Source of the DNA: Terrimonas ginsenosidimutans
GTDB lineage: Bacteria; Bacteroidota; Bacteroidia; Chitinophagales; Chitinophagaceae
Length of the DNA: 64,000 bases
Reading direction: 5' to 3'
NCBI RefSeq assembly: GCF_022012415.1
Contig: NZ_JAKLTR010000007.1
Span: 186,001-250,000 of the forward strand
Position 1 is the first letter of the stretch, and the number at the start of each line of letters is the position of its first letter. A program made the position numbers and the translations under genes. The notes beneath the pieces are model-generated. The model was not told the origin of the DNA. It searched no databases and was given only the letters and a program-made list of their open reading frames with translations. Below, one piece after another: positions 5,999-16,689 of this stretch.

Positions 5999-6832
5999 AT
6001 GGTTAGCATCCAAAACTTATCGTTTTCTTACAGGAAGAAGCCGGTATTCAACGGCCTGAACCTCAGCTTCCAGGCTGGTCACGTATATGGCCTGCTCGGC
6101 AAGAATGGCACCGGTAAATCAAGCCTGCTGCGCAATATCGCCGGACTATTGTTTCCTCAGAAAGGAACTATTTCAGTCAATGGTTTTACCCCGGGTGACA
6201 GGCTTCCCATCTTCCTGCAGGATGTATTTATGGTGCCGGAAGAATTTTACCTGCCTGATATCCCCGTTCCCGACTTTATCAGAAGCTATGTTCCTTTCTA
6301 TCCCCGTTTCAACAGTGATAAATTCAGGGACTATATGGCTGTTTTTGAAATACCGTCGGACAGTACGCTGCAGAACATGAGTTATGGTCAGAAAAAGAAA
6401 GTGCTGATCTCCTTTGCCCTGGCCAGCAATGCCAAATTACTGCTGATGGATGAGCCCACGAATGGCCTGGATATTATGAGTAAAAGCCAGCTAAGAAAAA
6501 TACTGGCGCAGGCGCTGGACGAAGAACGCTGCATCATTATCAGTACTCACCAGGTAAAAGATCTTGAAAACCTGATCGATCGGATCACGGTCATCGATGA
6601 CGGAAAGATCCTCTTTGATCAGAATGTAGAGGATATTTCGAGAAAGCTATCCTTCCGGTTTGCGATTGACGAAGCAGATCTTGCTGACGCGCTTTACAGC
6701 GAATCTTCCCTTGCCGGCAATGTGATCGTAACCCCCAGCCGCGAAGAAGAAGAAACCCGGCTTGACCTGGAGCTTCTTTACAAAGCGATCGTTACAAACA
6801 GTAGCAAAATCACCAAACTGTTCCATCCGTAA
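5999..6832 (+). CDS. ABC transporter ATP-binding protein (YtrB/BcrA-like)
   Basis: The cytoplasmic ATPase of a small exporter or of an antimicrobial-resistance type ABC system. Walker A is GKNGTGKS (residues 34-41). The signature motif is altered to MSYGQ (about 127-131) instead of LSGGQ. Walker B is LLLMDEPTNGLD (about 147-158) and the H-loop is STHQ. The length of 277 residues is usual for this class. It is the first gene of an operon with a membrane protein (9 bases downstream), a GntR repressor and a periplasmic protein. This order resembles ytr-type operons of Firmicutes that respond to cell-wall-active antibiotics, but the substrate here is unknown. Expression is likely controlled by the operator at 5965-5986. 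Confidence 0.9.
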   Translation: MVSIQNLSFSYRKKPVFNGLNLSFQAGHVYGLLGKNGTGKSSLLRNIAGLLFPQKGTISVNGFTPGDRLPIFLQDVFMVPEEFYLPDIPVPDFIRSYVPFYPRFNSDKFRDYMAVFEIPSDSTLQNMSYGQKKKVLISFALASNAKLLLMDEPTNGLDIMSKSQLRKILAQALDEERCIIISTHQVKDLENLIDRITVIDDGKILFDQNVEDISRKLSFRFAIDEADLADALYSESSLAGNVIVTPSREEEETRLDLELLYKAIVTNSSKITKLFHP

Positions 6833-6841
6833 ATCTCTTTT

Positions 6842-7663
6842 ATGAACCAATTCTTTAGTTTCAGAAGATTTTCTTTATTGATCTCAAAACACTGGGCCGA
6901 TAATAAAAAGCGTTATTTATTATCTGTGATCGGTTTTGCCCTGTTGCTGATCGTCTGGTTTATTTTTACCATTCTCGTTGATCCGCATAGCCCGATGCAA
7001 CAGGAAGTGCAGATCCTTACATTCTTTTTTGCGTTATTTGGGACAGGCGCTTTTTATGCCAGCCAGTATTTCAGGGACCTTGGATCAAGGGCCAAGGGAA
7101 TAAATTTTCTCCTGGTGCCCGCCTCCGCAGTTGAAAAGATACTGTGCAGTATTCTCTTCACGATCGTCATTTTTTTCAGTGTCTTTACCGCCGTATTTTA
7201 CCTGGTGGATGTTCTGATGGTGACAATATCCAACCAGTTCCTGACCTCGCACAATCCCATAAGACAGGAAGGTGTCATTAATGTCTTCCGTGCCGCGATC
7301 CTGCCTTTTGATGGAATATCAACGCTCAATGTGCTGCTGATCTTCTTTACCGTACAATCTATCTTTCTTCTTGGCTCTGTCTATTTTGCGAAATATAGTT
7401 TCATCAAAACAGTCATCTGTAGTTTTGTAGTCTTCTTTCTTCTCTTTTGCCTGATCTATGTTTTGTATGAATACGTGATGCCACGCGGGGGCTATGTAAA
7501 TGGATTTACCTCTTACCGCGTCAGCAGATTTAATGCCGGTGAGGATCACCTGGTGCAGATCCCCGGCTGGATAGACGATATGATCTATTTTGTTCTGATG
7601 TATGCCATCACTCCATTCCTGTGGGTTGTGAGCTACTACCGTCTGAAGGAAAAACAAGTATAG
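6842..7663 (+). CDS. ABC transporter membrane subunit (predicted permease)
   Basis: A 273-residue integral membrane protein with about six hydrophobic segments (roughly residues 25-50, 58-80, 100-125, 150-175, 180-205 and 245-265). It has the general layout of an ABC-2 type permease. It starts 9 bases after the ATPase stop and is followed 17 bases later by the GntR regulator, so it is the natural membrane partner of the ATPase. No sequence motif beyond topology identifies it; the assignment rests on context. The C-terminal short basic tail (YYRLKEKQV) is predicted cytoplasmic. Confidence 0.78.
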   Translation: MNQFFSFRRFSLLISKHWADNKKRYLLSVIGFALLLIVWFIFTILVDPHSPMQQEVQILTFFFALFGTGAFYASQYFRDLGSRAKGINFLLVPASAVEKILCSILFTIVIFFSVFTAVFYLVDVLMVTISNQFLTSHNPIRQEGVINVFRAAILPFDGISTLNVLLIFFTVQSIFLLGSVYFAKYSFIKTVICSFVVFFLLFCLIYVLYEYVMPRGGYVNGFTSYRVSRFNAGEDHLVQIPGWIDDMIYFVLMYAITPFLWVVSYYRLKEKQV

Positions 7664-14603: not shown

Positions 14604-16637
14604 TCAATGCTCCATCATCTCTTCCAGTATTTCTTCCGGCGTATTTACGCCATTCAGTTCAATGCCTTTTTCCGTTAACTGATGCCTGATCACTTCCTTG
14701 TTAAAGTTCAGATGATCCGCCAGGAAAGAGTGCCGCAGATCGAACAGGGTGAATATATCGTCCCAGGAATAAGCATAGATCTCATAATTGTGTGCGGCTT
14801 TTACGAGGAAGCGGCGGTTTTTTTCTTTCATCGAGTCATACTGTCCCTTCACATATTCATCCACTTTGTTACCGATAATGATGAACTTCCATAGTCGTTT
14901 TTGTGAATTGAATGCATCGTCTGAGCGGATGATCTCCATATAATCCTCTATCTGGCGGATCTGTTCAACCCCGATATCGACCAAGGGACGTTTTAATTCG
15001 ACCATTATATTTTCTTCCATCTGGAGCTCCTGGTCAAACATATCAGGCACCGCACGTTTACGGCAAAGGAACAGGTCGGGTCGCCGGGCGGACATGATCT
15101 TACCATCTTTCCTGCTGCTGCCTTTACCGGGGTTGCCGTTCAGGAAGTCGACATATTTATCATAAAGCTGGTTGAATGCTTCATTGGCGGAAACCAGGTG
15201 ATATTGCTCGCCGAACAGCCAGTAGTTCTCTTCGATCGCTTTTTGCAGATGTCGGATCTCAGAGGTAAATCTTTTCTGATCATATACCAGTGATTTAAGC
15301 AATAGAATGACCCTGTACCGGTCTTCGATCAGAGAAACCATTTTCGTGATATTGGCCATGGTCGTTTTTTGCAGCACCTGGGATAGTTCGTTGCGTTCGG
15401 CAGCGGTCATGGATATGATCCGGCCGATCAGGTCGAGGATCGTTTCCCGTTCGTCTTTTTCCAGTAAGATATTGATGAGCCCAACACTGATCTTCTGTTG
15501 CTCTTTGTTGAGCCCCAGAAATAGTTTCGGCTCAATGCAATAGATCGCTTTTACTACATTGAGCAGGTCTGCCTTGCGTGCCTGATCATACTTGTTTGTT
15601 TTAAATGCAGGGATCACGCCAGACCTTTCATATCCTTCGATCAGCTGGGAAGCAGCTTGTTCGCTAACAAAATTCTTCTGTTTTTCTCTCAGCAGCTTTT
15701 GCAGTCTGGCTGTCAGGCTTTTGAACACAGGAGAGGATCTGGTAGCCGAGCCATCCAGTGTAAGCGATTGTTCTTTATCATTCGGATTGAAGTTGTCAAA
15801 GAATGCAGATTCGACATAGACGCTATGGTTAAATCCGAGTGCATTGTTGTTGAATGATGTCAGCTCTTTGAAAACCTCCGTTTGCCTGCCGTTCAGGAAG
15901 TAGAAGTAAAATTTATCGCCGATCTTTTCCTGCCAGCGGACAAATGTGATGCGGAATGCTGCCAGCTTTTCGTCCTTGTTTACAGCAAACCTGATCGAAT
16001 CGCTTTCGGCGATCAGGGTTTGATAGGAGATAGGTTCTCCATTTATAGAGATCCTGAATTTCTTTTCTTTATTCAATAACAGGAACCACCCGAATTCCTT
16101 CGCGAGGTAGTTGATGAACTCCGGCTTGGAAAACGAGTAGGCTGTTACATCGAACAACTCGTGCAGCCGGACGGTTGTGCCGGTTTCTTTGTTTTTCGAG
16201 ATATGCCTGTTGCCTGTTACATATTTGTTCTTGCTGTTACGGTGGATGTCGATAGTATAATCCAGCAATCTGTCTGATTCAGGATCCCTGAATGTTGTTT
16301 CCCACCTGGCCGAACTGGCAAACGTGGCAAAGGAAAACCGGCCCTTTCCTTTATTACCACGAACAGAAGAGGATGATTTTCTGAATGAGGACTTCTTGAG
16401 CGAATCCATGAAGTTGCCGAAGGTCTGGTTGATCGTATCGAGATCAATTCCCTGTCCATTATCGGCGATGGAGAGGGAAGAGATAAAGTCGAGGCTGTTG
16501 GCGGAAAACTGAATGTCGACATGGGTTGCATTTGCATCAAAGGCATTCCAGATAAATTCTCCCACGGCCGCCATATAGTCTGCAGGAAGACCGGCGGAAT
16601 CGATACCGGTATTGTTGACTGATACGAGTTGTTCCAT
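14604..16637 (-). CDS. GHKL (HSP90/MutL/MORC-like) ATPase fused to a PD-(D/E)XK-like nuclease domain
   Basis: A 677-residue cytoplasmic protein. The N-terminal GHKL ATP-binding fold shows the N-box EFIWNAFDANA (Glu27, Asn31, Asp34), the G1 box DNGQG (Asp59-Gly63) and the G2 loop GNKGKGRFS (94-102). A transducer-like region follows, with YFLNGRQ in the 200s. After a long helical middle, the C-terminal part has RRPDLFL (Asp521), VELKRP (Glu547, Lys549) and EQIRQIEDY (Gln559, Gln562, Tyr566), the spacing and residue set of a PD-(D/E)XK nuclease. ATPases of the prokaryotic MORC/MutL-like group are known to be linked to restriction systems, sometimes with nuclease fusions, so a role in defence or DNA processing is plausible. 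The gene is solitary: no methyltransferase or helicase adjoins it. It has its own promoter with a palindrome. ATPase part sure; nuclease part inferred from motifs. Confidence 0.85.
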   Translation of the reverse strand: MEQLVSVNNTGIDSAGLPADYMAAVGEFIWNAFDANATHVDIQFSANSLDFISSLSIADNGQGIDLDTINQTFGNFMDSLKKSSFRKSSSSVRGNKGKGRFSFATFASSARWETTFRDPESDRLLDYTIDIHRNSKNKYVTGNRHISKNKETGTTVRLHELFDVTAYSFSKPEFINYLAKEFGWFLLLNKEKKFRISINGEPISYQTLIAESDSIRFAVNKDEKLAAFRITFVRWQEKIGDKFYFYFLNGRQTEVFKELTSFNNNALGFNHSVYVESAFFDNFNPNDKEQSLTLDGSATRSSPVFKSLTARLQKLLREKQKNFVSEQAASQLIEGYERSGVIPAFKTNKYDQARKADLLNVVKAIYCIEPKLFLGLNKEQQKISVGLINILLEKDERETILDLIGRIISMTAAERNELSQVLQKTTMANITKMVSLIEDRYRVILLLKSLVYDQKRFTSEIRHLQKAIEENYWLFGEQYHLVSANEAFNQLYDKYVDFLNGNPGKGSSRKDGKIMSARRPDLFLCRKRAVPDMFDQELQMEENIMVELKRPLVDIGVEQIRQIEDYMEIIRSDDAFNSQKRLWKFIIIGNKVDEYVKGQYDSMKEKNRRFLVKAAHNYEIYAYSWDDIFTLFDLRHSFLADHLNFNKEVIRHQLTEKGIELNGVNTPEEILEEMMEH

Positions 16638-16665: not shown

Positions 16666-16689
16666 TAAAGATACTAAAATATTTAGTAT
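16666..16689 (-). promoter_or_regulatory. Promoter box and palindromic operator for the GHKL ATPase gene
   Basis: On the minus strand, TATCTTTA (16673 down to 16666) matches the -7 consensus TAnnTTTG in all but the last base and lies 28 bases before the start codon. Partly overlapping it is an inverted repeat, ATACTAAA (16671-16678) and TTTAGTAT (16682-16689), with 3 bases between. A protein bound there would cover the core promoter. No regulator gene is adjacent, so its binding partner is unknown. Confidence 0.6.

Follow-up and report, generated by a model that had tools for sequence, protein, structure and literature searches.

Two kinds of described protein come closest to the gene considered here. 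The paraMORC3 proteins, set out in 2008 by Iyer, Abhiman and Aravind, join a GHKL ATPase and an S5 domain to a C-terminal restriction endonuclease (RE)-fold domain with an E-D-ExK motif; they are prevalent in proteobacteria and Bacteroidetes, laterally mobile, and in some cases stand alone (PMC2292703). VcSduA, a GHKL-Shedu protein of the Vibrio cholerae WASA lineage described in 2025 as Shedu type I-D, protects against Drexlerviridae and vibriophage X29 at every multiplicity tested, and the substitutions E27A and K557A abolish its protection in Escherichia coli; VcSduA is reported to protect when it is the sole gene expressed (PMC12137116). We analyzed a window of 64,000 nucleotides (nt) from Terrimonas ginsenosidimutans (contig NZ_JAKLTR010000007.1, positions 186,001 to 250,000, renumbered from 1) that holds one gene of this type, whose product we call P0001; the genome is designated G000, and the sole same-genus genome sampled is G395.

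P0001 resembles paraMORC3 in its succession of GHKL, S5 and C-terminal RE-fold domains and in the E-D-ExK motif (PMC2292703). It resembles VcSduA in being a single-gene system with an N-terminal GHKL ATPase carrying Glu27, a clamp-like middle region, and a C-terminal PD-(D/E)XK domain, assigned to Shedu, in which the catalytic lysine is K557 in VcSduA and K549 in P0001. A preliminary description of this gene had presented it as a GHKL ATPase fused to a restriction-fold nuclease and as a single-gene defence system not yet described. It is right about the domains and probably right about defence, as judged from residue conservation, profile comparison and the existence of a validated protein of the same architecture. 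The system is not undescribed, because that architecture was reported for paraMORC3 in 2008 (PMC2292703) and for the anti-phage protein VcSduA in 2025 (PMC12137116). The new element is the predicted SOS control of the gene. In the parts of the 2008 paper drawn on here, the RE-fold domain is compared with RecB-family nucleases, not with Shedu, and no control by DNA damage is proposed (PMC2292703); the main text of the VcSduA paper mentions neither LexA, SOS, DNA damage nor mitomycin (PMC12137116), whereas the P0001 gene has a LexA-type box. Our search of open-licence papers, judged from listings and term counts, found no link between LexA and Shedu, so that an earlier report elsewhere is possible. 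On balance we think it probable that P0001 is a mobile, ATP-gated, single-gene anti-phage nuclease of the GHKL-Shedu (paraMORC3 / Shedu I-D) type, here probably repressed by LexA and inducible by damage.

The prediction of SOS control began with a perfect palindrome that reads ATACTAAA-TAT-TTTAGTAT on the strand of the gene and lies 33 nt upstream of its ATG. The palindrome contains the published Bacteroidetes LexA box, CTAA-N5-TTAG, exactly (16674-16686, 36 nt upstream of the ATG); this box is listed for the Chitinophagaceae and was bound in vitro by a Pontibacter repressor (PMC8565304). T. ginsenosidimutans shares with the described Bacteroidetes LexA regulon both the operator sequence and a LexA-like helix-turn-helix (HTH)-S24 gene (PMC8565304). 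The 19-mer has no other mismatch-free match in the T. ginsenosidimutans genome. A simple Bacteroidetes promoter pattern occurred in chance numbers.

Because the palindrome was first noticed in the window, the other three boxed genes provide the test of it. The three closest homologues found all have the exact core, 12 nt (L009, 60% identity), 67 nt (G429, 63%) and 37 nt (a truncated copy in G400, 53%) before the start. When each 100-nt upstream region was shuffled, the chance of a box was 0.2-0.5% for each of the four genes, and the four regions are otherwise unalignable, with pairwise scores inside the range of 100 shuffles. The box is present at 4/4 genes (P0001 and its three closest homologues) versus 1/133 other open reading frames (ORFs) in eight loci (the window, L009 and L116-L121; Fisher p = 3.6e-7), and the one boxed ORF in this background shares the site of L009. 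Against a wider background, six of 197 ORFs had a box: the gene and its homologues account for four, one shares the L009 site, and one is in a locus that was fetched for its box.

A broader scan covered 250 nt at each of 80 starts, namely those of 79 homologues, among which near-duplicates were retained, and that of one operon head. Three of the 80 carry the enterobacterial box, CTGT-N8-ACAG, in exact form and as a tandem pair. These homologues are on viral contigs of two lineages (L046 and L073 in one, L053 in the other), and an exact enterobacterial box was found within 120 nt of only 2/463 other ORFs of such loci. In L053 and L046, short stretches of the flanking DNA have matches in phage records (Proteus, Providencia, Salmonella, Vibrio and others), and a gammaproteobacterial origin of the tandem-box contigs is probable. 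Neither exact box is found at the remaining 73 starts, and the patterns GAAC-N4-GTTC, GTTC-N7-GTTC and TTAC-N5-GTAA are found at none of the 80. The other Bacteroidetes LexA box, GGA-N5-TCC, occurs at two of them, at distances of 228 and 149 nt, which we took to be chance. LexA control, if real, would be a property of some branches of the family, apparently reached with two LexA specificities.

We also asked what the palindrome adjoins in other genomes. When one mismatch is permitted, a site is found in 98 of 295 relatives, and in the 176 genomes of the window's own family there is a modest excess (115 sites versus 77 for the control). Among 30 loci examined in these relatives, five sites are at HTH genes (L182, L185, L186, L191, L192; the three that were scanned all have an S24 peptidase), five at ImuA-like genes (L187, L200, L202, L204, L208; each matches NCBIfam ImuA with a score under the cut-off, and the sites of L200 and L202 are just within the longest reading frame), and one at a Y-family polymerase gene (L184). 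HTH-S24, ImuA-like and Y-family polymerase genes are typical SOS genes. Five further sites are at genes resembling 2'-5' RNA ligases (L188, L189, L205, L206, L209; the three scanned match PF13563), and the remaining 14 lie within genes or close to unassigned genes or to none. T. ginsenosidimutans itself has one HTH-S24-type gene at E<=1e-20 (G000:C34:90732-91478), whose product is 71% identical to the HTH-S24 protein of a relative.

The protein side of the case is that the nuclease domain of P0001 is homologous by profile to canonical Shedu SduA (PF14082). By hhalign, a P0001-family profile (residues 440-660) matched 22 proteins that the Pfam SduA_C model had found, with a probability of 96.5% (E 7e-10, 158 columns) and with the W-x-F-G stretch, the Asp, ExK-x-P and the Gln-Tyr helix in register. 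Control profiles matched the domain less well (HsdR_N_2, n=20, 69.6% over 37 columns; Mrr, n=17, 15.4%), and the ATPase and linker regions gave 0.1-0.2% against all three sets, which leaves the linker (residues 300-450) without a match to the Shedu, HsdR_N_2 or Mrr profiles. The canonical SduA ORFs found were 225-587 amino acids (aa) long, the longest being a bridging protein with a GHKL domain (L097:123-1886, genome G070). Its matches to HATPase_c_3 (E 1.7e-28) and SduA_C (32.5 bits, cut-off 27) both exceed the Pfam cut-offs, and BLASTP aligned it with P0001 across residues 24-600 (E 5e-12), which no other SduA_C protein matched significantly. By sequence, L097 connects paraMORC3-type proteins to Shedu; without it the profile match was 92.4% (E 5e-7). 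These comparisons place the P0001 nuclease domain in the Shedu SduA_C (DUF4263) family, in preference to HsdR_N_2 or Mrr.

Both active sites are conserved among 72 aligned proteins, P0001 included; L008, L012, L057, L068-L070 and L072, which are short, cut off or interrupted, were excluded from the alignments, of which alignment A2 holds 34 chosen sequences. The GHKL boxes are complete, as had been described: N31, D59, G61, G94, G97 and G99 are invariant (72/72), and E27 is present in 71/72, the sole exception being a gap. Asp521, Glu547 and Lys549, on whose conservation the nuclease assignment depended, are likewise found in every protein, as are W473, P551, Q562, Y566 and E460, the last of which the preliminary description had not named. 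The helix that had been read as QxxQ-type (559-562) is half right, in that Q562 is invariant and residue 559 is Q in 5/72; the conserved pattern is Q562-x3-Y566. A tree of 57 of the 72 proteins, with near-duplicates removed, has two deep clades separated by a fully supported branch, and the clade of P0001 contains three Bacteroidota proteins (L002 and L009 among them), 19 proteins from viral contigs and one from a Deinococcus plasmid.

In the mechanism that we propose, the GHKL and S5 module, on encountering foreign or broken DNA, would dimerize and clamp as ATP binds, and clamping would let the C-terminal PD-(D/E)XK domains (E460, D521, E547, K549, Q562) cut that DNA, by which the phage would be restricted directly. 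Bacteroidetes LexA would probably repress the gene through CTAA-N5-TTAG in T. ginsenosidimutans and its near relatives, with high-level production only after RecA-triggered cleavage of LexA, i.e. once DNA has been broken by a phage or by other damage. Beyond the operator sequence and its recurrence, the architecture, the conserved residues and the GHKL and Shedu domain homology, which are observed, we infer gating by ATP, the trigger, the binding of LexA and the inducibility of the P0001 gene. In VcSduA, both Glu27 and the nuclease Lys have been shown to be required for protection against phages.

P0001 is a protein of a divergent clade within a defence family for which a validated member was reported in 2025, and the predicted LexA-type operator offers a testable answer to the question of how a cell silences, and when it arms, a potentially self-damaging nuclease. 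The Bacteroidetes SOS response has been described mainly for DNA repair: the regulon members named are repair, polymerase, topoisomerase and repressor genes, with no defence gene in the parts of the source used here, and the terms "endonuclease", "phage defence" and "phage defense" are unmentioned in its main text (PMC8565304). If the prediction is true, this response also activates an anti-phage nuclease and restriction-modification (R-M) genes. A more general reading, on which we are evenly divided, is that GHKL-Shedu nucleases have come under SOS control repeatedly, by way of the Bacteroidetes LexA box in the P0001 gene and its near relatives and of tandem E. coli-type boxes in two viral-contig lineages of probable gammaproteobacterial origin; defence would then be armed upon DNA breaks or prophage induction, and mobile defence genes (the P0001 gene, R-M) would belong to the Bacteroidetes SOS regulon besides repair genes.

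A number of results weigh against a LexA-controlled GHKL-Shedu defence nuclease. Because a search with at most two mismatches gave 8 sites in the T. ginsenosidimutans genome versus 9 for a control pattern, the motif is unenriched there; and because the window has two copies of the exact 8-base core versus 1.4 expected, the window site alone is not significant. In the 119 genomes of the order's other families there is no excess (25 sites versus 70 for the control), and the box of the T. ginsenosidimutans HTH-S24 gene is imperfect (TTAA-N5-TTAG). The Bacteroidetes box is missing at 76 of the 80 starts scanned, including that of the 48% homologue in G230 and those of the phylum members in the other clade (L003-L007), and within 200 nt of the SduA_C genes it is found at 0/22. 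As to the protein, the likeness of P0001 to VcSduA is one of described architecture. The Pfam SduA_C model finds no match at E<=1 in the T. ginsenosidimutans genome, and of 17 family members scanned none matches PF14082 directly and 13 weakly match HSDR_N_2; because the direct search is blank, Shedu membership rests on the profile comparison and the bridging protein. Against solved structures, the nuclease-domain profile found no Shedu chain and just a TatB chain (E 0.55). The clade of P0001 is deep, with 19-28% identity to most family members, and among nine scanned neighbors in the window there are zero defence genes.

The alternative that survives best, which we consider unlikely without being implausible, is that P0001 is a constitutive GHKL-Shedu restriction nuclease and that the palindrome serves some other regulator, such as an R-M controller, as its operator, or has no function. 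Most starts in the family lack a LexA box (the Bacteroidetes box is at 4/80 and the enterobacterial at 3/80), as this alternative would have it. The palindrome could mark R-M control, because sites precede methyltransferase and restriction genes: of the two other one-mismatch sites in T. ginsenosidimutans, the site that has an identified gene lies before a C5 methyltransferase gene paired with a BsuBI/PstI-type restriction gene, and a site in the same-genus genome precedes an Eco57I-like methyltransferase. However, the palindrome has the sequence of the published LexA box (PMC8565304), the 30 loci in relatives include the five HTH, five ImuA-like and one Y-family polymerase genes noted above, and in two other family lineages the equivalent gene carries a different LexA box.

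We think it improbable that P0001 is an enzyme of DNA repair or DNA quality, either MutL-like or a damage-induced nuclease, in place of a phage defence protein. Its GHKL core is MutL-like, an SOS-like box could mean repair, and Iyer et al. speculated that stand-alone paraMORC3 proteins may act outside R-M (PMC2292703). Full-length MutL family membership was rejected, since MutL models match only within residues 22-165 and far below their cut-offs. The distribution of the gene is patchy for a repair enzyme: homologues were found in 8/395 phylum genomes and in 4/59 relatives (T. ginsenosidimutans included in both), a sporadic occurrence, and the gene is absent from the one same-genus genome sampled. 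The presence of the gene on phages, plasmids and an apparent satellite, neighbors such as Drt2, type ISP R-M and AbiE, and the anti-phage activity of a protein of the same architecture (VcSduA, PMC12137116) also speak against repair. It is very improbable that P0001 serves as the restriction subunit in a BbrUII/HgiDII-like R-M system whose cognate methyltransferase is elsewhere: NCBIfam BbrUII/HgiDII (E 1.8e-14) and PADLOC REase_II (E 8.4e-7) do match and some homologues are near methyltransferases, but the matches are confined to the GHKL ATPase that these enzymes share with it (residues 20-206 and 7-133), the NCBIfam score of 53 bits compares with a cut-off of 550, and the nine scanned neighbors include zero methyltransferases.

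The features of the LexA-controlled GHKL-Shedu gene that we propose are collected in Table 1. The coordinates given for the ORF in the preliminary description, which left its strand unstated, hold, and it has an ATG start and zero internal stops; P0001 is the single match within the 7.14 Mb assembly. The name S5 for the second region is inferred from the 2008 description of paraMORC3 (PMC2292703). Pfam gives no match above cut-off in the C-terminal half.

Table 1. Features of the P0001 gene and its upstream region, in window coordinates
Feature	Position	Strand	Basis
Perfect palindrome ATACTAA-N5-TTAGTAT, predicted LexA (SOS) operator	16671..16689		sequence and published box
GHKL-Shedu gene P0001, 677 aa	14604..16637	minus	ORF and full-length homologues
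GHKL ATPase core, residues 23-133 (E27, N31, DNGQG 59-63, GNKGKG 94-99)	16239..16571	minus	Pfam HATPase_c_3 E 9.8e-15 and conservation
Second alpha/beta region, ~residues 209-300, probable S5/transducer domain	15738..16013	minus	predicted strands and helix; Foldseek
All-helical linker, residues 303-452	15282..15731	minus	predicted helices
Shedu-type PD-(D/E)XK nuclease domain (assigned by profile), ~residues 455-643	14709..15275	minus	hhalign to SduA_C proteins
Glu460	15258..15260	minus	72/72
Asp521	15075..15077	minus	72/72
Glu547-Leu548-Lys549 (ExK)	14991..14999	minus	E and K 72/72; residue 548 is L (48) or I (24)
Gln562	14952..14954	minus	72/72

In an AlphaFold2 model of P0001 (predicted local distance difference test, pLDDT, 80; predicted template-modelling score, pTM, 0.57), D521 is ahead of a strand, E547-K549 end the next strand and Q562 is in the following helix, a modelled order that fits the PD-(D/E)XK fold. 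The C-terminal 236 aa modelled alone without an alignment gave a pLDDT of 36 and were unusable. With the full model as the Foldseek query, the best 50 PDB matches were Hsp90/TRAP1, aligned over 386-447 columns (the ATPase and middle part), and the named low-E entries among the best 50 viral matches were mainly topoisomerases, RIIA and Hsp90-like proteins; the nuclease domain was not ranked among the matches listed. The full-length profile likewise found GHKL proteins among solved structures, besides one Rop chain (E 0.54).

Outside the phylum genomes, homologues were found in 42 plasmid records (26 cover >=80% of the query), 60 viral contigs, 2 Pasteurella phages and 11/5426 E. coli genomes, the last via a Salmonella homologue; L009 is on a Chitinophagales metagenome-assembled contig. 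Among 14 annotated loci viewed, a gene for a DNA methyltransferase or for R-M is within ~8 kb in four (L010, L014, L019, L129), and three others belong to phages or to an apparent P4-type satellite (L016, L017, L126). Because 11 of the 14 were drawn from a plasmid collection, the mobility is partly a sampling effect.

The homologues in G230 and G429 are in defence or mobile contexts; L009 has metabolic neighbors. The G230 homologue (L117:8953-12662) probably forms one operon with an upstream AbiEi-AbiEii pair, because it overlaps AbiEii by 4 nt, and a TraG-like gene is nearby. Near the G429 homologue are genes for an integrase and AbiEii, and a large gene that weakly matches SMC/AAA. In the window, the neighbors are genes for an outer-membrane protein, an ABC transporter, an unassigned protein, a histidine kinase and a sigma-54 regulator, and the earlier statement that no methyltransferase or helicase is near holds for the nine neighbors scanned. 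The window has no tRNA genes, and the repeats around the locus are merely short or imperfect. No empty site could be defined from the same-genus genome and one other relative, because only the downstream kinase-regulator pair is shared beside the site.

Several further observations concern the palindrome and the homologues. In the T. ginsenosidimutans genome (G000:C1, L179:5371-7372), a CTAA-N5-TTAG palindrome, ATTCTAAATTCTTTAGTAT, is 33 nt upstream of the reading frame of a C5 methyltransferase gene (6389-7372) with an adjacent BsuBI/PstI-type restriction gene, and in G395 a similar palindrome (G395:C17:45207-45228, L178) is immediately before an N6/Eco57I-like methyltransferase gene; the Bacteroidetes SOS regulon may extend more widely to R-M genes. 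Genes of the 2'-5' RNA ligase superfamily follow the palindrome in L175 (T. ginsenosidimutans), L189, L206 and L209, and all four, when scanned, match PF13563. The G400 copy (L118:9266-10501) stops after 411 aa, without the nuclease, and retains its LexA-type box; downstream of it we found no nuclease remnant in 300 residues per frame or by tblastn of the locus. The E. coli homologue in NZ_CP080070.1 (L126:9001-10986), the one such context viewed, is between a polarity-suppression gene and an integrase beside ssrA, in an apparent P4-type satellite; the study of P4 hotspots by Rousset (2022) mentions none of GHKL, gyrase, MORC, Shedu, HSP90 or HATPase. The homologues in Pasteurella phages Pmp3 and Pmp14 (L016, L017) are amid hypothetical and anti-repressor genes inside the tail-gene region.

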